Origin: an uncultured Alphaproteobacteria bacterium
GTDB taxonomy: Bacteria > Pseudomonadota > Alphaproteobacteria > Thalassobaculales > Thalassobaculaceae
Reading direction: 5' to 3'
Assembly: GCA_902629125.1 (NCBI GenBank)
Contig: CACOPQ010000004.1
Coordinates: forward strand, 62,001-126,000
Length of the DNA: 64,000 nucleotides
Part shown: positions 20,544-62,055 of the stretch, in pieces
Layout of the letters: every line of letters starts with the position of its first letter
Position numbering within the stretch: the stretch's first letter is position 1
Made by a program: the position numbers and the translations under genes
The notes under the pieces: generated by a model
What the model was told of the DNA's origin: nothing
Databases searched by the model: none
What the model saw: the letters and a program-made list of their open reading frames with translations, nothing else

Positions 20544-21359
20544 ATGGAGATTAGCGTGCCCCAGGTATCGACCAAACATGGATTTCTCGAGTATGCGATT
20601 ACGGATTCCTCTTCGCGTTGGAGGAAGCCAACGGAAACAATTTTATTCCATCATGGCGTCGGCATTGATATGGATATTTGGATAGATTGGCTGCCACATC
20701 TTTCAAACAACTTTAGATGTGTCCGGTTTGACATGAGAGGTTGCGGAAGGTCAAGCATTCCGCCAGACGGTCAAAGATGGAGCATGGAGGAAATGATGTC
20801 TGATGTGCTTGCAGTGGCAGACGCTGCTGGCGCTGACAAATTTCACCTTATTGGTGAATCTATCGGTGGAACAATATCGCTTTATACAGCTCTGAATGCC
20901 TCGAATAGAATAACGACTGTGACGGCACTCTCAACGGGACACCGAGGCAATTATATCAATCAGGTTGGGAGTTGGAGAAATACTGTTGAGCAGGAGGGGT
21001 TTTCGGCATGGACAACAAAAATGATGGAGCATAGATTTTACGCTGGTGCAGTACAAGATGATGTATATCAGTGGTTCTCTAAGACCCAAGCTAATTCAAA
21101 CCCTGAAGTCACATTGGCGCTTGGAGAATTGCTGATGGCTCAAGACCTTTCCCAAGATTTAAATAAATTGAAGAAGCCTGTTTTACTCATACATCCCGAC
21201 TCTAGTCCGTTTCTTCCCGTGAGTATGTCCGCAGAAATACATTCTTTACTGCCAAACTCCCAATTGATGGTTATCCCACATGCAAAGCATGCTATAGCAT
21301 GTAGCCATGCAAAAGAAGGAGCAGAAGCCTTTTTAAACTTTATAGATTGTTACAATTAA
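20544..21359 (+). CDS. Alpha/beta hydrolase, 3-oxoadipate enol-lactonase-like
   Basis: A 271-residue alpha/beta hydrolase with an oxyanion HHGVGIDMDIW segment (36-46), FDMRGCGRSS (62-71) and the nucleophile S106 in GESIGG. The histidine lies in PHAKHAIACSH near the C-terminus. It resembles PcaD-type enol-lactonases and related carboxylesterases. It lies 30 bases behind the nitroreductase gene and is probably co-transcribed. With a dienelactone hydrolase and a maleylacetate-reductase-like gene within 8 kb, ring-cleavage product metabolism is plausible, although no dioxygenase for ring cleavage is seen. Confidence 0.85.
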   Translation: MEISVPQVSTKHGFLEYAITDSSSRWRKPTETILFHHGVGIDMDIWIDWLPHLSNNFRCVRFDMRGCGRSSIPPDGQRWSMEEMMSDVLAVADAAGADKFHLIGESIGGTISLYTALNASNRITTVTALSTGHRGNYINQVGSWRNTVEQEGFSAWTTKMMEHRFYAGAVQDDVYQWFSKTQANSNPEVTLALGELLMAQDLSQDLNKLKKPVLLIHPDSSPFLPVSMSAEIHSLLPNSQLMVIPHAKHAIACSHAKEGAEAFLNFIDCYN

Positions 21360-21421: not shown

Positions 21422-21477
21422 TTGGCGACCGAGAAAAGTTTCTAACCTACAACCCTCTGTTAAAAAAACAGATACTC
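21422..21477 (-). pseudogene. Decayed 3' portion of a tRNA-Arg(UCU)-like gene
   Basis: These 56 bases align without gaps to 26009-26064, the 3' three-quarters of the intact tRNA-Arg gene, in the same orientation. By hand count 40 of 56 positions match, including TTGGCGAC at the CCA end, AACCT and CAACCCTCTG around the T-arm and variable loop, and CAGAT with CTC near the anticodon arm. The anticodon loop is reduced to A/T-rich sequence and the T-stem is broken. Beyond 21477 the match fades. It is either the distal attachment-site copy of an old tRNA-directed insertion or a dead tandem tRNA. Confidence 0.65.
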
Positions 21478-21533
21478 CTCTAGAAGTAGCCTTAATGATT
21501 TCTATGGGTTGTCTGCAAACGTTACTCACATGA

Positions 21534-21701
21534 TTATTCTAATAAATTCCTGTAACTATTTTGAGCAGAGGCAACAAAAACGGCTTCAAAACTCCCACGT
21601 TCGTCGAACCACAAGCTGTGATTTATTTTTTTCGAATAGAAACTCGCGAGCACGAAAGGGAAAATAACAAGTAGGAATTTTCTTTCAGTTCTGCCATACA
21701 C
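21534..21701 (-). CDS. Possible 55-residue exported small protein
   Basis: A GTG at 21701 opens a 55-codon frame. It starts MYGRTERKF, then a hydrophobic LLVIFPFVLASFYS that looks like a signal peptide or membrane anchor, then a polar tail (WFDERGSFEAVFVASAQ). No family is recognised and the ribosome site is weak, so it may be chance or the remnant of a larger gene. It would be divergent from hydantoinase pair 1. Confidence 0.25.
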   Translation of the reverse strand: MYGRTERKFLLVIFPFVLASFYSKKINHSLWFDERGSFEAVFVASAQNSYRNLLE

Positions 21702-21862
21702 TTACTCGGAAAATAATACTTTGGAAACTATTATGAAACCTGTTTAATGAAGACTAAAGATGACCAGAATTCTAACCGATATTAGCAACTTTGAACTTAA
21801 CGTGAGTAGATTAAAAACATGCAATATAGGGTACTTAAGTTTCAACCTAAGGAGAAGAAATA

Positions 21863-23887
21863 ATGCTATGGGTCGGTATCGATACTGGCGGCACTTTCAC
21901 CGATCTGGTTGCCTATAATTCCGAGACAAGAAAATTGATTTCCCTGAAGACGCCGTCAACGCCGGATGATCATGCTCTTGGCGTAATAACCGCTGTGAAG
22001 AAAACAGGGATTGAGTTGCCAAAGATCACCGGTTTTTCGCATGGCACTACAGTGGCTACCAACACAGCGCTAGAACATAAAGGAGCCAAGCTGGGGATCA
22101 TTACAACGCGAGGCTACCGAGATGTGTTAGTTATAGGCCGTGGAAACCGTACGCAACTATATGATGTAACAGCCGTGCGCCCGGCCGGAATTGTCCAGCG
22201 TGAACATATCATGGAAGTGGATGAACGCAGCACTGTCGACGGCTTGATCCATAAGCATCTTAACGAAGATCAAGTTGCATCGGCCTGCACCTATTTTCTA
22301 TCGGAGGGGATTGAAGCAGTTGCAGTGTGTTTCCTGCACGCCTATGCCAATTCTCGGCATGAGCAGCGGGCAGCTGAAATTGTCCAAAAATTGATGCCCG
22401 AGGTGCATGTCTGCACATCAAATGAAATTTTGCCGGAATACCGTGAATTTGAGAGGTTTTCGACTACCGCTCTTAATGCATTTGTAGCACCGCGCACTGG
22501 ACGGTATTTAACCCAATTGGCAGATAAGCTTGCTGACACAGGCTTGACTACCCCAGTTCGTGTAATGGCGTCAAACGGTGGAACTTGGCCGGCGGTTCGC
22601 ATGGCTAACCGGCCTGTAAACGCATTACTATCAGGGCCAGCCGGCGGTGTAATCGCTGCAAGCGTACTCTCCGAAGCACTAAATATCCATGACATTATCA
22701 CGTATGACATGGGCGGTACGAGTACTGATGCCTGCATGATCCGAAATGGGACCTATGGTATGAACCCAGAAGGAATGGTCGGGTGGTATCCAAATCGGGT
22801 GCCACAAATTGACATTAATACCGTCGGAGCAGGTGGAGGGAGTATAGCCTATTTGGAAGCAGGTAATTTTTTAAATGTTGGCCCGCAATCGGCCGGTGCG
22901 GAACCGGGACCAGCTTGTTATGGAAAAGGTGGAACGCAGCCAACCGTAACCGACGCCAACGTAGTACTCGGTCGATTTCTTCCTAGTGACGCCCTCGGTG
23001 GCTCTATCTTTATCGATGTCAAAGCTGCTCAAAGTGCTATAGCTCATATCGCCAAAAAGTTGAAACTTTCAACCGAAGCCATGGCCGAAGGGATAATCCA
23101 ACTCGCGGTAATTCAAATGACCAGCTCCGTTAAAGAAATTTCAGTGATGCGCGGCATTGATCCAAGAGATTTTACTCTCGTTGCTTTTGGAGGAGCCGGT
23201 CCAATGCATGGAGCTTTGATTGCAGAAGAACTAGGTATGGCCCGGGTAGTAATACCGCCGCTCCCAGGTAACTTTTCCGCTTTTGGATTATTGGTCGCAG
23301 ACACAAGGCATGACGTAGCTAAGACCGAGATTATGCAGCTAGAATTCTCTGATATAAGTGATATCCGTAGAGCTCTGAAACCCTTGGAGAATGAGGCAAG
23401 AGAACGGCTTAGGGCCGACGGTTTTGACAATGATCAAATACGAATCGAGGCTAGTTTAGATATGCGTTATGTAGGTCAGTCCTTTGAGCTCAATATTATG
23501 CTGCCAGCTGCATTCACGGATACTGAAGAACTGATGGAAGCCTTTCATCGAGCTTATGAACAGCGATACTCACATCGAGATCGAGGCTCCGGTGAAGTGG
23601 TAGCCTTTCGTGTCACCGGCTTTGGAACTGTGGATCGTCCTCCTTTACCGTCAGTCCTTGGTGGCAACGACCTGGCTGGCTCTGTTCGAGATAAGCGACA
23701 GGTAATTTTTAATGGCGTATCCAAAGAAACAACCGTTTATTGGCGAGAAGACCTACCGTTGAATACAATTTTCGAGGGACCTGCGATCATAGAAGAACTT
23801 GGATCCACTACCGTAGTTCCACCTAACTTCAACGTATCAATGGACCGAACGGGTAGTCTGATCTTAGATCGGAAAACAACAAAATGA
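21863..23887 (+). CDS. Hydantoinase/oxoprolinase subunit A (HyuA), pair 1
   Basis: A 674-residue ATP-dependent subunit of the HyuA/5-oxoprolinase/acetophenone-carboxylase family. GIDTGGTFTDLVAY (5-18) is the N-terminal phosphate loop of the actin-like ATPase fold; FSHGTTVATNTALEHKGA, YDMGGTSTDACMI and TVGAGGGSIAYLEAG continue the standard order, and the C-terminal beta domain has RYVGQSFELNI. With HyuB it activates and opens amide, lactam or carbonyl substrates using ATP. Its stop overlaps the ATG of the partner gene (ATGA, 23884-23887). No racemase or D-hydantoinase lies nearby, so the substrate is open. It lies between a tRNA-Arg remnant and the intact tRNA-Arg gene. Confidence 0.93.
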   Translation: MLWVGIDTGGTFTDLVAYNSETRKLISLKTPSTPDDHALGVITAVKKTGIELPKITGFSHGTTVATNTALEHKGAKLGIITTRGYRDVLVIGRGNRTQLYDVTAVRPAGIVQREHIMEVDERSTVDGLIHKHLNEDQVASACTYFLSEGIEAVAVCFLHAYANSRHEQRAAEIVQKLMPEVHVCTSNEILPEYREFERFSTTALNAFVAPRTGRYLTQLADKLADTGLTTPVRVMASNGGTWPAVRMANRPVNALLSGPAGGVIAASVLSEALNIHDIITYDMGGTSTDACMIRNGTYGMNPEGMVGWYPNRVPQIDINTVGAGGGSIAYLEAGNFLNVGPQSAGAEPGPACYGKGGTQPTVTDANVVLGRFLPSDALGGSIFIDVKAAQSAIAHIAKKLKLSTEAMAEGIIQLAVIQMTSSVKEISVMRGIDPRDFTLVAFGGAGPMHGALIAEELGMARVVIPPLPGNFSAFGLLVADTRHDVAKTEIMQLEFSDISDIRRALKPLENEARERLRADGFDNDQIRIEASLDMRYVGQSFELNIMLPAAFTDTEELMEAFHRAYEQRYSHRDRGSGEVVAFRVTGFGTVDRPPLPSVLGGNDLAGSVRDKRQVIFNGVSKETTVYWREDLPLNTIFEGPAIIEELGSTTVVPPNFNVSMDRTGSLILDRKTTK

Positions 23888-25917
23888 GCAAAATAGACCC
23901 TGTCACATTAGAGATTATGACTGAAGGCCTTATATCAGTAGTACGTGAGATGCGGGCTACAGTTTTCCGCACAGCTCGCTCGGTAGCCATCTATGAAGCG
24001 CGAGACTTTTCTTGTGGTTTATTTGATGCTACAGGCCAGGTGGTGGCTCAGTCGGAGGATATTGGAAGCCATGTTGTACCTTTACCTTGGTCCGTTGAAC
24101 AATCCCTGAAAGAACTCGGTGATGACCTTGCGCCGGGTGACGCCATTTTGATGAATGATCCTTATCGTGGTGGAACACACCTAAATGACGTTACTATCAT
24201 TTATCCAGTATTCCATGATGGTAAATTGGTATTTTTTCCTGCTGTGCGTGAACATTGGGCTGACGTCGGTGGGTCTGTCCCTGGTTCAATGTCCGGTACT
24301 GCAAACGAGATATACCAGGAAGGTATCCGTATTCCGCCATTAAAAATCATGGAAGGTGGTAAAATCAATAACGCAGTTATGGAATTGTTATTATCAAATA
24401 TGCGAGTTCGCGATGAACGCTTGGGCGACTTCAATTCGGGCATGGCCGCCTGTAAAACGGCCGAGAGAAGACTTCGCGAATTAATTTCCCGCCACGGGCT
24501 GGATCCGTTGCTAGCTAGCGTAAACTTAAATCTTAAACGCTCGGAAAAACGGATGCGAGAAAAGATTTCATCTTTACCGGATGGCGATGTCTACTATGAA
24601 GATTATTTGGAAACCTTTGGGCCAAACGGGCTTGAACCATTATTGCTGCCTCTTAGATTGACGATAGCCGGTGATAAGCTCACAGCCGATTTCACCGGCG
24701 TGTCTCCTCAAGTTCCAGCACCGGTAAACTCAACTCTGGCGGTTACCGCGGCATCGGTATTTATTACTTTAAAGTCAGCACTGGACCCAAAGCACGCCTT
24801 AAATCATGGTTCATTTCGGCCGGTGACTGTAATCGCGCCTGAGGGCACTATTGTCAACGTAACTCATCCAGCCCCAGCGGGTAGTCACGGTGAGATCCGT
24901 AAGCGAGTAATAGCTTGCATGTTGGGTGCCTTAAGCCAGATCTGCCCAGAATTAATTTCTGCTGACATCCATCGTACATCATTCCATAATTTAATTGGTG
25001 GAATTGACCCGAAGACTGGACGAGAATTTGTACACTACGAATGGTCGGCCGGTGGAAATGGTGGATTTAAAGGTGCTGATGGACCAAGCGTTATGGCGGC
25101 AATCGACTGGGGAGATCTTAGTACAGCGCAACCAAGTGAAGTATTGGAAAGTAGATTTCCGTTGCACATTGAATGGACACGTCAGGGGATTGATTCCGGC
25201 GGGGCTGGTTACAATCGTGGCGGACTTGGTATGCGGCGAAGTATTATGCTGACCCGCGGTAGTGCATCCTATTCATTACTTTCAGATGGAGCGGTTATGC
25301 CACCGTTTGGCGTGTTAACTGGTCAATCTGGGGCACGTGTAGAATCATTTATAATTCGTGACGGTAAGCGGATCGACTTCCCCACACCTGGAAAAGTTGG
25401 AGGTTTCCCGATGAAGGAGGGTGATAGGTTGATCCTACAGTCAGCTGGTGGTGGGGGGTATGGCGATCCATTGACGCGAGAAATCCACCGCATTACAGAA
25501 GATTTGCGCGCTGGACTTATCTCAATGCAAGCAGCAACAGAGATTTATGGAGTAGTACTGAAGGATGATAATACAATAGATCAAGATGCCTCAGTAGAAC
25601 ATAGAGAAAGGCTTTTGAAAGCTAGGCCGACTTTGCAGGCTGCCATCGCTGACTTTGATTGTTACAAGACCGTCGGCTATAGTCGAAAACGAATCTGCCG
25701 CGTAAACCCCGCTGATGCACAACGCTTCGGTCAAACGATCGACGATTGCATTGAAATTCTTGGACCGACTGGCACGCCACTGCGCGCATGGATAGAAGTG
25801 GATGAAAGTGTTGAAGCTGGTCAATTACCTCTAGATACCCTAGGTCTAGGGGTATTAGGCGCCGAGGAAGGCGACGACGTGAAAGTACGGTCCTTGCTGA
25901 TACCCGTTGTAACGTGA
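23884..25917 (+). CDS. Hydantoinase/oxoprolinase subunit B (HyuB), pair 1, with C-terminal extension
   Basis: A 677-residue HyuB subunit. DPVTLEIMTEGL, NDPYRGGTHLNDVT, EHWADVGGSVPGSMSG, EIYQEGIRIPPLKI and GGGGYGDPLTREI are the usual conserved blocks. The HyuB body ends near residue 540. About 130 further residues follow that are absent from the other two HyuB proteins here (556 and about 558 residues). This tail has CRVNPADAQRFGQTIDDCIE, then GTPLRAWIEV and EEGDDVKVRSL, which looks like a small double-psi beta-barrel. It is translationally coupled to HyuA by a 4-base overlap. Confidence 0.92.
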   Translation: MSKIDPVTLEIMTEGLISVVREMRATVFRTARSVAIYEARDFSCGLFDATGQVVAQSEDIGSHVVPLPWSVEQSLKELGDDLAPGDAILMNDPYRGGTHLNDVTIIYPVFHDGKLVFFPAVREHWADVGGSVPGSMSGTANEIYQEGIRIPPLKIMEGGKINNAVMELLLSNMRVRDERLGDFNSGMAACKTAERRLRELISRHGLDPLLASVNLNLKRSEKRMREKISSLPDGDVYYEDYLETFGPNGLEPLLLPLRLTIAGDKLTADFTGVSPQVPAPVNSTLAVTAASVFITLKSALDPKHALNHGSFRPVTVIAPEGTIVNVTHPAPAGSHGEIRKRVIACMLGALSQICPELISADIHRTSFHNLIGGIDPKTGREFVHYEWSAGGNGGFKGADGPSVMAAIDWGDLSTAQPSEVLESRFPLHIEWTRQGIDSGGAGYNRGGLGMRRSIMLTRGSASYSLLSDGAVMPPFGVLTGQSGARVESFIIRDGKRIDFPTPGKVGGFPMKEGDRLILQSAGGGGYGDPLTREIHRITEDLRAGLISMQAATEIYGVVLKDDNTIDQDASVEHRERLLKARPTLQAAIADFDCYKTVGYSRKRICRVNPADAQRFGQTIDDCIEILGPTGTPLRAWIEVDESVEAGQLPLDTLGLGVLGAEEGDDVKVRSLLIPVVT

Positions 25918-26009
25918 TCAAAAAACGATACTGACGCTCGATATTACCGTACTTAAAATCAATCCTTTCTATTAGCTGTTTTGTGAAAGGTCATGATTTC
26001 ATTGAGGAT

Positions 26010-26086
26010 TGGCGACTCCGGCAGGACTCGAACCTGCAACCCTCTGCTTAGAAGGCAGATGCTCTATCCAGTTGAGCTACGGAGCC
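26010..26086 (-). tRNA. tRNA-Arg (anticodon UCU)
   Basis: The minus strand folds as a full cloverleaf. The acceptor stem is GGCTCCG paired with CGGAGTC (one G-U). The D stem is GCTC/GAGC, the anticodon stem TCTGC/GCAGA closes a CTTCTAA loop with anticodon TCT, and the T stem GCAGG/CCTGC encloses TTCGAGT. The discriminator G is followed by an encoded CCA at 26012-26010. It reads AGA (and by wobble AGG) codons. Two decayed relatives lie at 21422-21477 and 38872-38949, in the same orientation. Confidence 0.97.
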
Positions 26087-26874
26087 GACGAGGAGAAAAT
26101 AGACGCAAAACCCGAGGAAAAGCAAGACTTTTAGAGGAAAAACCAAGAGAAAGTCTTGAGTTTTGGTGAAAATAAAATAGCGGTTTTATTACAGAGGCTT
26201 AGTTATGTCCCGTTATCCATCATAAACCTTACACATGACGATTTTGCCGTAACCTTTTATCAACATTAATAACTAAGGTAAGGAGTGAGAAATGAGATTA
26301 GGCCAATTTAAAAATAGCACCGGGGTAAAGAATGACAAGAGAACTTAAATTAATTGAAGTCTGACATGCTAAAAATTAAAAAAGCTAATTTCATTATGTG
26401 GCGATTGGGAGAACTCTTCCCAGTGCCCCCTGTTCCATTGGATCACAGAAGTTTATACGAGTTACTTGTTGGTTGGTCTGCGGTATTTCGGACCTCAGGG
26501 CGATGCAATACGACCGTCCAAATATCATCATTTTTATCTAATTCTACAGCCATTATTTCTTCTTTTCGAAATGTTTCTTCGTGAAGCCTTAACCAGGCCT
26601 ATTTAAAATACAATCAAGCAAAACTCGATTTAAATACTTCAACCAACTATGCTCTACAATAAAATGACAGTACAAGATGGGATAACTCTACCGATAAAAA
26701 TTATCAAATAGCTTCCGAATAAAATTGATCTAAGTTTACTATTTTCAAACTAGGTTGTTTCTAAGTAGATTGAAATCCTCTAAAATTTCGTGGAAAAGCG
26801 TTGATACACTATAACAGTCTTAAAACCTTACTCATATTCAGTGATCTCGAAGAAGCGCAAGCGGGTTTTCTATC
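26087..26874. other. 788-base gap with gene debris between tRNA-Arg and an acyl-CoA dehydrogenase gene
   Basis: The first 50 bases are the 5' flank of tRNA-Arg and are partly repeated at 38950-38996. An enoyl-CoA hydratase remnant occupies 26443-26553 on the minus strand. At 26292 an ATG behind a good AAGGAGTGAG ribosome site opens an 18-codon frame (MRLGQFKNSTG...) that could be the truncated start of a lost gene. No intact gene longer than this is supported. Confidence 0.5.
26443..26553 (-). pseudogene. Enoyl-CoA hydratase remnant (N-terminal 36 codons)
   Basis: ATG at 26553 opens MAVELDKNDDIWTVVLHRPE, then VRNTADQPTSNSYKLL and a TGA at 26443. The DIWTVVLHRPEVRN pattern is the first beta-strand and N-x-x-D turn of crotonase-family enoyl-CoA hydratases, correctly placed about 10 residues from the start. 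Beyond the stop no crotonase sequence can be followed, so this is a truncated or eroded gene. The intact crotonase at 460-1233 has a different sequence (LFILDRPEAGN), so it is not a local copy of that gene. Confidence 0.6.
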
Positions 26875-33149: not shown

Positions 33150-35249
33150 ATGATAACAGTGGCATTTGATATTGGTGGGACCTTCACGGACTTCGTTTTA
33201 CGAAATAATGCGACTCAAAAGACATGCTTTCTGAAAGTCACAAGTACACCGTCAAACCCTGAGATTGCAGTACTGTCTGGATTAAAGCAAATACTGAAAG
33301 AAGCAAACACAGCTCCGAAATGTGTCGGCACTGTCCTGCACGCGACTACCATTGCCACAAACGCAATTTTGGAGCGGAAAGGCGCATCAACTGCACTTAT
33401 AACAACGAAAGGTTTTCGGGACGTGTTGCTTATCGGACGTCAAAAAAGATACGAAACATATGACCTCTATATAAATAAACCGGAGCCGCTTGTTCAAAGA
33501 AAACATATCATTGAAGTAACAGAGCGAACAGATTTCGACGGATCCATATCAACTTCTATAGACCCCCGCTCTTTAGATATTGCAATAGAAAAACTGATCG
33601 AATTAAAATCTGACGCTGTTGCTATTTCATTGATCAATTCTTACGCCAACCCATCAAATGAACAAGTGATCAGAGACGCAATATTTAGAAAAGCCCCCCA
33701 CTTATCGGTCTCAGTTTCTTCAGAAATCTCACCAAAGTTTAGAGAGTACGAGCGCACAAACACCGCTGTTTCTAATGCTTACGTTCAACCGATTTTGGAT
33801 CGCTACATCGGTCAACTCGAGTCTGCACTAACGGCAGAAGGCTTTAAAAATGATCTCTTTGTTATGCAATCTAACGGAGGACTTGTATCAACTAAGATAG
33901 CTCGAAAGTATCCTATTCGAGTTGTTGAGTCTGGTCCGGCTGCTGGAGTTCTAATGGGAGCTTTGGTTGGTGAGCGCATTGGAGAGAAACATGTTATCAC
34001 ATTTGACATGGGAGGAACGACGGCAAAACTTGGAGCCGTTGATGATGGCAGGCCTGCGATCAGCCCTACATTCGAAATAGGACATGTAAATTTTAAAAAA
34101 GGCAGCGGACTTCCAATCAATATCCCCTCAGTTGAGCTCATAGAGATTGGTGCAGGAGGGGGTTCGATCGCAAGTGTAGATACGGGCATGATAAAAATTG
34201 GACCCGAAAGCGCCGGAGCAGATCCGGGACCAGTCTGTTATGGACTCGGAGGAACCAATCCTACTGTTACTGATGCAAATATAATTTTAGGTTATATTTC
34301 AACTAAACTATTCAATTCTGGCAAAATTCAACTTGATATTAGGCGAGCACGCCTAGAACTAGATAAACAAATAGCTAAACCTTTGAACTTGAGTTTAGAG
34401 AAAGCCGCATGGGGTGTGCATGCTGTTGCAACAAAAAATATGGAGAATGCTCTTAGAATTGTATCAGTCGAACGGGGCAGAGATCCTAGGAAATACGCAA
34501 TGGTGGCATTCGGAGGGGCCGGGCCACTTCACGCCGCGCGATTAGCTAGAGAAATTGGCATTCCAAAAGTAATTATTCCGTACGCGGCAGGTCTCGGTTC
34601 AGCTCTTGGTTTACTCGAAGCTCAGCCTAAGGTCGATGTTTCAATTACCCAGCTAATAAAAATGACAGGTACTGTGCATAGCAAAATTGCATCGATTTTT
34701 CATGAACTGGAAAATCGCGCTTATGCAGAACTAGACCGATTAGGAGCTAAAGGGACTATTGAACTAATTCGACAAGCGTCTATGAGATATGTTGGACAAG
34801 GTTATGAAATCCTTGTGGATTTACCGTCAGGAACTATTGGTAAAAATTACCATGCCCTCGTCAAAAAAGCCTTTAAAGATACGTATTTTAAGAAACATAA
34901 ATTTCTAGATAACGAAGCAGAAATTGAATGCGTAGATTGGACATTAATTGCCAATATAAAAAGTAACAACGCTAATCACAACATTCATGATGCCAGTGCC
35001 TCACAGGATACTTTTTTAGATCAACAAGGAAGCCGACTAGTGTGGTTTCCAGAAACGGATGGTTTTATTGAAACGAAAACAATTAATAGACAAACACTCC
35101 CTGTAAATCATGTTGTAACCGGGCCAGCCTTGATCGAAGATAGTGATAGTACTGCGGTAATCTTGCCAAATGATAAAGTTACAAAACACGAATTAGGTCA
35201 CTTGGTAATAGAAATTTATCAAAATCGAGTGCCGGAGGTAGACAGATAG
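33150..35249 (+). CDS. Hydantoinase/oxoprolinase subunit A (HyuA), pair 2
   Basis: A 699-residue HyuA subunit with FDIGGTFTDFVLRN at the N-terminus, LHATTIATNAILERKGA, TFDMGGTTAKLGAV and IGAGGGSIASVDTG. Note that the second block reads GGTTAKLG where pair 1 has GGTSTDA and pair 3 GGTSADV; this puts it in the subgroup often annotated as N-methylhydantoinase A. It is divergent from the broken SDR gene. Its last base is the first base of the HyuB start (TAGTG), so the pair is tightly coupled. The substrate is unknown. Confidence 0.93.
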   Translation: MITVAFDIGGTFTDFVLRNNATQKTCFLKVTSTPSNPEIAVLSGLKQILKEANTAPKCVGTVLHATTIATNAILERKGASTALITTKGFRDVLLIGRQKRYETYDLYINKPEPLVQRKHIIEVTERTDFDGSISTSIDPRSLDIAIEKLIELKSDAVAISLINSYANPSNEQVIRDAIFRKAPHLSVSVSSEISPKFREYERTNTAVSNAYVQPILDRYIGQLESALTAEGFKNDLFVMQSNGGLVSTKIARKYPIRVVESGPAAGVLMGALVGERIGEKHVITFDMGGTTAKLGAVDDGRPAISPTFEIGHVNFKKGSGLPINIPSVELIEIGAGGGSIASVDTGMIKIGPESAGADPGPVCYGLGGTNPTVTDANIILGYISTKLFNSGKIQLDIRRARLELDKQIAKPLNLSLEKAAWGVHAVATKNMENALRIVSVERGRDPRKYAMVAFGGAGPLHAARLAREIGIPKVIIPYAAGLGSALGLLEAQPKVDVSITQLIKMTGTVHSKIASIFHELENRAYAELDRLGAKGTIELIRQASMRYVGQGYEILVDLPSGTIGKNYHALVKKAFKDTYFKKHKFLDNEAEIECVDWTLIANIKSNNANHNIHDASASQDTFLDQQGSRLVWFPETDGFIETKTINRQTLPVNHVVTGPALIEDSDSTAVILPNDKVTKHELGHLVIEIYQNRVPEVDR

Positions 35250-36919
35250 TGAGTGATAATCAGCTTGACCCCATTACAGCAACCGTTATCTGGAACACTT
35301 TATTATCAATCGCAGAGGAATTGGGAACAACACTTCGACACACCGCTTTTTCAGAAGGCGTTCGAGAAGGTGACGATTTTTCCACCGCGATATTTAATAG
35401 TAACGCACTAATGGTAGCGCAGGGTAATTTTAGCCCTGGTCATCTTGGCGCGATGCCATCTTGCGTAAAACACGCGTTATCTTATTTCCCACCAGAGTCG
35501 TTAGAGCCTGGGGATTCCATACTATTAAATGATTCGTTTTTGGGATCAGGACATTTCCCCGATACATTTCAGATTATGCCCGTTTTCTTGGAAGGAAAAT
35601 TGATCGGATTTGTAGCTTGCTCAGCTCATCAAGTCGATATGGGAGGAGCCGCTCCCGGTTCGCAGAAAGTGCAGGGGGTTACAGAATCTTATCAAGAGGG
35701 TTTGCGTCTATTACCAGTTCGTTTTGTAAAAAATGGGACTATTGACGAGGATATACTGCGCATAATTCTTGGTAATGTGAGGGTTCCGGATAAAGTACGT
35801 GGTGATTTATTAGCCCAACATACTGCAAACTTAAGTGCGGCAGAAAGACTGTCTAGGTTATTTTTTGATCATGGTACGGCAACAGTGGAGAGCGCTTACA
35901 CGTTTATTTTAAATCGGTCTGAGCAGGCCATGCGAAAAGCTCTATCTGTCGTACCCGAAGGAAAATACAGCTTCGAAGATTATCTCGACGATTACGGACC
36001 AGGAACCGAACCTATAAAAATGGCAGTAGATGTTACTTTTGATGGGATGGGAAGTGTTGAAATTGATTTTTCACGTTCATCCGATGCCGTTCCTGCAGCC
36101 ATTAATTCTTACATTAACTACACTCGGGCCTACGCACTTTTTGCCATAAAGGTTTTTTGCAATTCAAAAGAACCACAAACAGAGGGAGCGATGCGGCCAA
36201 TAACAATAAAGGCACGCGAAGGTTGTTTCTTTAATCCTTCCTTTCCCGCACCTTCAGGCGGCAGGGCGATACTTCAAATAAGAATTTTTGATACTATTAA
36301 CGGTGCTCTTTCCATGGCGTTGCCCCAAAAGGCAATGGGGGCATTTTCGCATTGGTCAAACCCAAACATCGGTGGAATTGATGACAGAACGAATAAACAG
36401 TTTGTAATGTATGATCTGTCTCTTGCCGGTTATGGAGGAAGATATAGCGAAGACGGGCCTGAAGCTCTTTCGCCCGTTATGAATTGTACTAATATCCCAG
36501 TTGAAGTACATGAGGCACACAATCCCATCCGAATTAACTGTCTTGAACTGATACAAGATAGCGGCGGCGCCGGCCAATGGAGAGGGGGATGTGGATTGAG
36601 AAAAGATATAGAGTTACTTAATTCTACGGCGGTATTATCGCATCTGGCAGATAGACACAAATTTCAACCATATGGCGTTTTTGGGGGCAAATCCGGAAGC
36701 CTTGCTGAAACGCTATTAATTAGAGGAAATAAAACTATAGCAGTGGCCTCTAAAGGCGTCGAACAACTACAAGAAGGCGATGTCTTGAGTTTTCGTCTTT
36801 CGGGTGCCGGTGGCTATGGACCACCAGAGGATCGAGATCCATGTGCTATTAGACAGGATATTGATAATGAATATATTAGCGCAGAAGCAGCGGAGCGAGA
36901 TTATAAGTGGTCGGAGTAA
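35249..36919 (+). CDS. Hydantoinase/oxoprolinase subunit B (HyuB), pair 2
   Basis: A 556-residue HyuB subunit starting at the GTG that overlaps the HyuA stop by one base. DPITATVIWNTLLSIAEELG, NDSFLGSGHFPDTFQIMP and CSAHQVDMGGAAPGS are conserved blocks; ESYQEGLRLLPVRFV and GAGGYGPPEDRDP are near the middle and end. The ATVIWNTLLSIAEELGTTL start with SFLGSGHFPD is typical of N-methylhydantoinase B-type members. Length is standard, without the extension seen in pair 1. It converges with a CoA-transferase gene; a 9-bp hairpin lies in the gap. Confidence 0.93.
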   Translation: MSDNQLDPITATVIWNTLLSIAEELGTTLRHTAFSEGVREGDDFSTAIFNSNALMVAQGNFSPGHLGAMPSCVKHALSYFPPESLEPGDSILLNDSFLGSGHFPDTFQIMPVFLEGKLIGFVACSAHQVDMGGAAPGSQKVQGVTESYQEGLRLLPVRFVKNGTIDEDILRIILGNVRVPDKVRGDLLAQHTANLSAAERLSRLFFDHGTATVESAYTFILNRSEQAMRKALSVVPEGKYSFEDYLDDYGPGTEPIKMAVDVTFDGMGSVEIDFSRSSDAVPAAINSYINYTRAYALFAIKVFCNSKEPQTEGAMRPITIKAREGCFFNPSFPAPSGGRAILQIRIFDTINGALSMALPQKAMGAFSHWSNPNIGGIDDRTNKQFVMYDLSLAGYGGRYSEDGPEALSPVMNCTNIPVEVHEAHNPIRINCLELIQDSGGAGQWRGGCGLRKDIELLNSTAVLSHLADRHKFQPYGVFGGKSGSLAETLLIRGNKTIAVASKGVEQLQEGDVLSFRLSGAGGYGPPEDRDPCAIRQDIDNEYISAEAAERDYKWSE

Positions 36920-38327: not shown

Positions 38328-38871
38328 AATTACTAATTCCTCCTTTTTTCTCTCTTATCACTATGATTTTGCTGTTCCGGTGCGTTTGTTTCGTGCATCA
38401 AAAATTTCGACTGCAAAAGGAAGTCTAAGTCTCAAAGTTTAATCCAATCATTTTAAGCTCGCTTTTGATAATTCGTCTATCTCTGTAAATCCGCATTATT
38501 TTGCGCCAGTTTTTTTGCCACGAAAAAGTATCAGCACGTTTTCGATGAAGACTTTCCAGTGTAGTTATTATATTGCAAGATATTTTAAACGAGCAGTCTT
38601 TGACAAACCAGACTGTAGACCGTGCTAAGACGTGTCACTTCCTCTGTAATGAATATCATTGGGCCTTAAGAATAGCCGTGCGTGATTTAATGTCGATTAT
38701 CTGTTTTTATTTTTCGTATTGACCACTCCTCTTTCCTTTCAATCAACACAAGAGGAAGAAGAGCAATAACCGGCGCCTAGTTTTTGCATGCCTAAAGACA
38801 ACGGCATACTTATGCCCTTTTTTCGTCGCGTAATATCAGGGAGGAAACCAAATCCTTTCTTTGCGCGACTT
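38328..38871. other. Gap of about 540 bases without recognisable genes
   Basis: Apart from the promoter region expected next to the CoA-transferase start, nothing coding or structural was recognised here on either strand. It leads directly into the tRNA-Arg pseudogene. Confidence 0.5.
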
Positions 38872-38949
38872 TTGACGATTTAGGTCGGTCTCGAACTTGA
38901 AACCCTCTGCTTAGACGGCAGGCGCTCTATCAAGTTGAGTTACGGAACC
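38872..38949 (-). pseudogene. tRNA-Arg(UCU) pseudogene
   Basis: These 78 bases align without a gap to the intact tRNA-Arg at 26009-26086, with about 63 identical positions by hand count. The decay is in essential places. The universally conserved U33 before the anticodon is G. The T-stem strands no longer pair, two acceptor-stem pairs are broken and the encoded CCA is TCA. The homology continues about 50 bases into the 5' flank (38950-38996 against 26087-26136, one indel), ending near a shared TTTTAGAG. The whole tRNA locus with its promoter region was therefore duplicated before decaying. Confidence 0.85.
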
Positions 38950-39140
38950 GGTGGGGAGAAACTAGACAAAAAAACTATCCAAAAGAAGGCTTTTAGAGCA
39001 AAACCTTTGGAAAAGTCTCGGACAGTTGCAGATTAAAGAGGAAATCAATATCATTAGGATGAGCCTGAAAAAAATATTTTTTTAAATGAAAATTATCTTC
39101 CAATCGTATTTTGCGTAATTCATATGAAAGGCAAAAACTA

Positions 39141-60882: not shown

Positions 60883-60959
60883 TGGTCGGGGTGGACGGAT
60901 TCGAACCGCCGACCCTCTGCTCCCAAAGCAGATGCGCTACCAGGCTGCGCTACACCCCG
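60883..60959 (-). tRNA. tRNA-Pro (anticodon UGG)
   Basis: The minus strand folds as a cloverleaf: acceptor CGGGGTG with CACCCCG, D stem GCGC/GCGC, anticodon stem TCTGC/GCAGA with loop TTTGGGA (anticodon TGG), and T stem CGGCG or GGCGG-type arm around TTCGAAT. Discriminator A and an encoded CCA end at 60883. It reads CCA and other proline codons. It lies directly upstream of the dead complex I subunit gene on the same strand. Confidence 0.96.
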
Positions 60960-61512: not shown

Positions 61513-62055
61513 CTATGAGTTACAGGAGGACGGTTTTCCCTTTGCCATGATTTTACGATAAAAAAAGGCAATCAAGCCTATGATTACTGCTCCAAATAAC
61601 GTCGGTATAAAAATAAAAGACCAACTAGGTTCCGAAAAAAATATAATGATTGGATTTGATGCTGCTGGTGGATGAGAAACTCTGAGGACTTGCATTCCAA
61701 CCACAGTAAAACACAGCGCTATTGGTAATAGCCAGAAATTAGCACCAAAAGTCATCAAAAAAGCCACCCCTATCAAAGATGCTAAAAAATGCCCTGCTAT
61801 AAGATTTTTCGCTTGAGAAAACTCTGATTTTGGAACTGCAAATAATAAAAAAATCGAGGCTCCAAAAGATCCAATAATCGATGGATAGCCGGAAGCAATT
61901 GAAATAACGTAGAGAACCATAATTGCAAAACCCGATATAATCCCACTTATGACAATTCGTGTCAGCGATTTCATATTAGTGATCAACCGAAAATAGGCGC
62001 GGCTTTTGTTCAGATAGGCCTTGAATACGACTTTTTTTCTTTTAAAAGGCAGCAT
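61513..62055 (-). CDS. HPP family membrane protein
   Basis: A 180-residue inner-membrane protein with four to five hydrophobic helices from about residue 32. The hallmark His-Pro-Pro motif is in VSHPPAASNPIII, after VVGMQVLR. HPP-family proteins are linked to nitrite transport in plants and cyanobacteria; bacterial roles are largely unknown. The first 27 residues are basic and cytosolic; a start at the internal Met28 (61974) is possible. Its ATG at 62055 lies 7 bases from the Fur-box palindrome, so iron or metal control is likely. Confidence 0.8.
   Translation of the reverse strand: MLPFKRKKVVFKAYLNKSRAYFRLITNMKSLTRIVISGIISGFAIMVLYVISIASGYPSIIGSFGASIFLLFAVPKSEFSQAKNLIAGHFLASLIGVAFLMTFGANFWLLPIALCFTVVGMQVLRVSHPPAASNPIIIFFSEPSWSFIFIPTLFGAVIIGLIAFFYRKIMAKGKPSSCNS

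Follow-up and report, generated by a model that had tools for sequence, protein, structure and literature searches.

The 64,000-nucleotide stretch of DNA analysed here (the window; positions 62,001 to 126,000 of contig CACOPQ010000004.1, assembly GCA_902629125.1) comes from an uncultured alphaproteobacterium of the family Thalassobaculaceae. Between an intact tRNA-Arg(TCT) gene and a decayed copy of the 3' part of this tRNA it carries a 4.6-kb segment with two genes for a hydantoinase/oxoprolinase-type enzyme, hyuA1 and hyuB1 (together hyuAB1). A first-pass annotation had read this arrangement as the geometry of a tRNA-targeted insertion. The genome that holds the window (G000), a 2.37-Mb metagenome-assembled genome that is 68% complete, was compared with four sister genomes (G001-G004, which with G000 form the genus set of five), with G032 and G033 from other genera of the same family, and with G034 from another genus. 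In window coordinates, the segment and its flanks are composed as follows:

20544-21359, plus strand: alpha/beta hydrolase gene (Pfam Abhydrolase_1), the host flank on the tRNA 3' side; the same gene adjoins the 3' copy or the remnant in G002 and G004.
21423-21481, minus strand: decayed displaced 3' part of tRNA-Arg (nucleotides (nt) 19-77), the far end of the segment, recognised from its identity, shuffled controls, the G002 remnant and a perfect copy in G004.
21482-21862, no strand: left end of the segment and hyuA1 leader, with no recognisable arm motif left.
21863-23887, plus strand: hyuA1, hydantoinase/oxoprolinase A-type subunit (Pfam Hydantoinase_A, Hydant_A_N), cargo; missing at the G004 locus.
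23884-25917, plus strand: hyuB1, hydantoinase B/oxoprolinase subunit (Pfam Hydantoinase_B), cargo.
25918-26009, no strand: right end of the segment, where TGATTTCATTGA (25994-26005) is similar to a part of the arms found in other elements.
26010-26086, minus strand: intact tRNA-Arg(TCT) (ARAGORN and Rfam), the presumed target gene, which the segment's own 3' part would have restored.
26087-26243, minus strand: tRNA leader, common to G002 and G004 (alignment from about -157).

The two ends of the segment had been described as an ungapped match of about 70% in the same orientation, restricted to the 3' portion of the tRNA, and this description holds. Positions 21422-21477 and 26009-26064 are identical at 40 of 56 positions, against a best value of 29/56 in 2000 first-order Markov shuffles of the intergenic stretch. 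The remnant agrees with nt 19-77 of the tRNA at 39 of 59 positions and with the 5' 18 nt at 4 of 18. When the 3' 59 nt were compared with the whole window, the highest values were those of the gene itself (59), a dead copy at 38873 (47), the tRNA-Pro gene (40) and the remnant (39), all remaining places giving 29 or less. No tRNA is reported by Rfam at the 21.4-kb site, even at E<=10. Since the similarity is confined to the 3' part and Rfam is silent, the remnant is to be seen as a decayed 3' part and not as a dead whole tRNA, a candidate that was considered and rejected; no full-length match that would have spoken for the latter fits at this site.

The expectation that the cargo would consist of the two hyu genes without an integrase was likewise confirmed: apart from hyuA1 and hyuB1 there is no sizeable gene between remnant and tRNA, and searches with the PF00589 and PF00239 profiles found no integrase gene inside the segment. 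The G+C contents of hyuA1 (48.6%) and hyuB1 (48.1%) are the highest of the window, other coding sequences of more than 1 kb having 43.4 +/- 1.9%, and they exceed those of the window's second hyu pair (41.9% and 44.2%), in line with the higher G+C content noted earlier for pair 1. No relative of hyuB1 was found in viral contigs by the search made.

The tRNA-Arg locus with its hydrolase flank is present in two of the four sister genomes, G002 and G004. The G002 locus (L049; contig PCAV01000079.1, 'Rhodospirillaceae bacterium isolate NP1282') has the order alpha/beta hydrolase, remnant, hyuAB1, displaced tRNA-Arg 3' copy, GFA-family gene, a different hyu pair and intact tRNA. Its hyuAB1 part is collinear with the window (91.8% DNA identity including the flanks), the hyuAB1 genes themselves being 93-94% identical, like the backbone, and the orthologous remnant still matches at 35 of 56 positions (null maximum 29). 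Because hyuAB1 and remnant are collinear in G000 and G002, the segment must have entered before these genomes separated, which agrees with the old age proposed for the event. The contrary case of hyuAB1 without any tRNA-like sequence at its far end was not encountered, since G002 has the remnant. The displaced 3' copy of G002 differs from the tRNA at only one of 59 positions (58/59 identical), and thus the GFA-family gene and the second hyu pair entered later than hyuAB1. This later segment lies between hyuAB1 and the tRNA and repeats the same geometry. Its hyu pair (L049 1103-4888) has 76% DNA identity to a pair that lies on the other side of the tRNA in the window:

33150-36919, plus strand: second hyu pair of the window, related to the G002 pair.

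That these second pairs flank the tRNA on different sides in the two sister genomes suggests that they were acquired independently.

In G004 (locus L050) the 4.6-kb segment is absent from the homologous locus, and the hydrolase flank borders a tRNA 3' copy instead. The flank, alignable up to the very end of the tRNA, joins a displaced 3' copy that agrees with the G000 and G002 tRNA at 59 of 59 positions and is cut off at nt 19. It is followed by a 1.9-kb stretch with a single MscS-type channel gene and then by the intact tRNA. The latter differs from the displaced copy by two paired substitutions in the T-stem (G50A/C66T); G034, a member of a different genus, has an identical tRNA-Arg. With the old sequence at the displaced end and the G034-type sequence in the intact gene, it was the element that brought the new 3' half, as insertion predicts; this mosaic tRNA orients the insertion at the single-nucleotide level. 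Different cassettes are thus present at the same tRNA in related genomes (hyuAB1, GFA plus hyuAB2 in G002, and the MscS channel in G004), bounded by tRNA-derived direct repeats as in additive islands, and the intact tRNA at one end with a same-orientation 3' fragment at the other, the usual mark of a tRNA island, is found again in G002 and G004. Several cargo-only segments have been added at tRNA-Arg(TCT), that with hyuAB1 being one, and there is very little doubt that the hyuAB1 segment is a tRNA-directed insertion.

Further partial tRNA copies were found when about 1.2 Mb was scanned, mostly around tRNA genes of G000, G002 and G004 together with some loci in G032-G035. They comprise a tRNA-Pro 5' half in G004, tRNA-Lys and tRNA-Glu 3' parts in G000, a tRNA-Arg(TCG) 3' part in G033 and a tRNA-Arg(TCT) 5' half in G034. 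Among the cargo are peptide ABC transporters, an amidase, a nitrilase-family protein, an MlrC-like protein, a TPR-methyltransferase and an RND efflux system. In G000, the tRNA-Lys 3' fragment (L104 12031-12076) and the tRNA-Glu 3' fragment (L106 11622-11641) both lie near the intact gene, the former enclosing a TPR-methyltransferase gene and the latter a Sel1-repeat gene. Copies of the 3' half sit on the 3' side of the tRNA, and copies of leader plus 5' half on its 5' side. The latter number two at tRNA-Arg in G004, one in G034 and one at tRNA-Pro in G004; all end at nt 31-34 and continue into an IHF-like arm:

L050 12758-12844: tRNA 5' half, 5' side of the intact tRNA.
L050 4617-4674: tRNA 5' half, 5' side of the intact tRNA.
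L097 13414-13502: tRNA 5' half, 5' side of the intact tRNA.
L091 17271-17308: tRNA 5' half, 5' side of the intact tRNA.

The insertions of this reverse polarity carry an RND efflux system, a 974-amino-acid protein without Pfam match, and peptide transporters. The 3' copies of tRNA-Arg(TCT) begin at nt 18-19, its 5' copies extend up to nt 31-34, and the core GATAGAGCATCTG is spanned by both kinds of copy, with one substitution in one 5' copy. Six of seven ends have a site near the IHF consensus WATCAANNNNTTR immediately within the element, at a distance of 18-20 bp from the tRNA fragment. The sequence CAATGACTTAG, which is found in about 0.1% of random AT-rich 45-mers, occurs exactly in four of the seven tRNA-Arg/Pro ends, covering both polarities and two different tRNAs. 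Exact TCAATGACTTAG is present at eight places in the five genus genomes, as compared to one for the reversed control; two of these are known G004 element ends, one lies beside a tRNA-Ser gene, and the rest look unrelated to tRNA genes. The copy beside tRNA-Ser, just upstream of tRNA-Ser(GCT) in G001 (L156 around 1501-1615), is possibly another element end. The tRNA-Phe 3' copies seen in three genomes were excluded from the family, their ends being without the motif. Viral-contig sequences resembling the tRNA-Arg 3' part were rejected as attachment sites on the ground that they are complete tRNAs, and searches of viral contigs for arm-plus-core patterns gave nothing or unrelated matches.

The 5' side of the tRNA in the window also holds the dead copy mentioned above:

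38870-39003, minus strand: dead full-length tRNA-Arg copy with leader, beside a PhyH gene; about 80% identity over 38887-39003.

A simple insertion of the 3' type does not explain this copy. The adjacent gene encodes a PhyH dioxygenase, and a related PhyH gene in G004 adjoins a truncated 5' half; about 13 kb of G000 (window 39.8-52.8 kb) is missing between PhyH and the next genes in G004. Two low-scoring, apparently decayed tRNA-Pro copies lie outside the window (G000:C4:128471-128544 and 129888-129961), beyond the intact tRNA-Pro gene (window 60883-60959).

Regarding the enzyme that would perform the insertions, the PF00589 profile detects seven proteins in the five genus genomes, with at most two per genome. 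The three of these that were examined are of the XerC/XerD type, though they score below the NCBIfam equivalog cut-offs. In the same five genomes no serine recombinase (PF00239) was detected and no autonomous, integrase-bearing relative of the segments was found, nor does any of the tRNA-Arg segments contain a recognised integrase. Other genera of the family possess many integrases, including P4-type enzymes encoded directly beside tRNA-Ser in G032 and G033.

The best explanation, which we consider probable as a whole, is that the stretch from 21.42 to 26.01 kb entered tRNA-Arg(TCT) as a cargo-only integrative segment by site-specific recombination. Its attachment site would have carried the 3' part of the tRNA from nt 19 to the end, so that insertion rebuilt the gene and displaced its original 3' part to the far end, where decay would have followed. 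Recombination would have been carried out by a lambda-type tyrosine integrase, supplied in trans and helped by IHF, a step that we favour with some reserve because segments and genomes show no integrase and the ends of other segments keep a phased IHF-like site. The integrase may have come from a phage, from a plasmid or from an autonomous relative which these genomes do not contain or which was not assembled, and the hydantoinase/oxoprolinase-type cargo may have been retained through its usefulness.

Alternatively, the segment could at first have been an ordinary integrative element with its own integrase gene next to the tRNA, from which the integrase and other genes were deleted after insertion while the useful hyu genes were kept. 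The age of hyuAB1, which predates the G000/G002 split, and its decayed far end would have allowed time for such loss, and the tRNA-Ser elements of G032 and G033 illustrate that integrase-bearing elements do occupy tRNA genes in this family. However, the recent insertions in G002 (58/59) and G004 (59/59) are cargo-only as well, that in G004 consisting of just one gene in 1.9 kb. No trace of an integrase was noticed, and the few PF00589 proteins of the genus are XerC/XerD-type where examined. The old hyuAB1 segment may have lost an integrase, and the recent segments of one and three genes are less likely to have done so; as a general explanation we regard such loss as unlikely. Involvement of the host XerC/XerD recombinases, in the way that some elements exploit dif, deserves mention since these are the only tyrosine recombinase types recognised in the genus. 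Xer-dependent elements known so far integrate at dif, though, the core GATAGAGCATCTG and the arms are unlike dif by inspection (no dif search was made), and the phased IHF-like sites fit a lambda-type integrase better, which makes this route improbable. Still less credit can be given to the view that there was no insertion, the remnant being a dead tandem tRNA and the hyu genes having come between the copies by ordinary rearrangement or homologous recombination. Duplication of whole tRNAs does occur here, as illustrated by the dead tRNA-Arg and the dead tRNA-Pro copies, but at 21.4 kb only nt 19-77 match, and the near-perfect copies in G002 and G004 end sharply at nt 18-19, by which this view is largely refuted.

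Several points weigh against entry of a cargo-only segment by site-specific recombination. No empty, uninserted site was found: the flanking hydrolase gene has close matches only in G000, G002 and G004, and G001 and G003 are without one. By sequence the remnant is equally close to tRNA-Lys(TTT) and to tRNA-Arg (39/59 each), and it is assigned to tRNA-Arg because of its position and context and of the G004 locus. The far end of hyuAB1 shows no recognisable arm motif, and the motif itself was picked after inspection of the ends. Moreover, the genomes are metagenome-assembled and 59-93% complete, so that an integrase gene may simply be missing, and assembly can be misled by short repeats.

Going beyond this locus, it is a tentative and rather doubtful suggestion that integrase-free cassettes occur throughout the lineage, sharing an end signature in which an IHF-like site keeps a constant spacing to a GATAGAGCATCTG-type core, served by one recombinase in trans and entering the same tRNA in either polarity. 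Some would bring a new 3' half and others a new promoter and 5' half, so that both sides of the tRNA grow into a two-ended array. If one recombinase acting in trans does serve all cassettes, the end signature offers a handle for tracing this enzyme and for cataloguing the mobile fraction of the genomes. As it stands, bacteria with no recognised integrase beyond XerC/XerD types in the available genomes can still gain catabolic operons at fixed tRNA sites, including those for hydantoinases, peptide transporters and amidases.

Cassettes bounded by partial-tRNA repeats are known from additive flexible genomic islands (fGIs), namely those of Ca. Actinomarinales (PMC7771536), fGI-2 of Methylophilaceae (PMC10872708) and fGI1 of Alteromonas (PMC4119200). 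Like the segments described here, these islands hold metabolic and transport cargo in tRNA-directed cassettes, and the word integrase is absent from the text of the Actinomarinales paper (PMC7771536). They differ in lineage and in the tRNA used, whereas here both sides of one tRNA are occupied and a phased IHF-like site is common to the ends. Of the 31 ssrA islands of Dehalococcoides, 15 are without an integration module, and these were suggested to be cis-mobilizable elements (CIMEs; PMC3146451). They too lack a recombinase, have their cargo enclosed by attL/attR-like copies of the target RNA gene, and show tandem accretion. The hyuAB1 segment has the attL and attR sites and the lack of recombinase and transfer genes that characterise a CIME, its far end being decayed. 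Sister islands in Dehalococcoides carry a serine-recombinase module, whereas no recombinase-bearing sister element was found in the present genus, and target and crossover position differ as well. In the integrase-bearing islands listed by Islander, with 3760 3' fragments and 159 5' fragments (PMC4383910), a regenerated tRNA and a displaced fragment mark the ends as they do here, but Islander demands an integrase within the island and would reject the hyuAB1 segment. The tycheposons of Prochlorococcus, to the extent that PMC10872708 covers them, are likewise cargo elements at tRNA genes of aquatic bacteria with nutrient-related cargo; those described there carry a tyrosine recombinase, and none was found here. 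Taken alone, the hyuAB1 segment is a clear further case of an established kind, that of tRNA cassettes, CIMEs and additive islands. What sets the system apart, and makes it a variant worth following, is that one tRNA receives insertions of both polarities, that the ends have a phased site in common and that no integrase is recognised across the genus.
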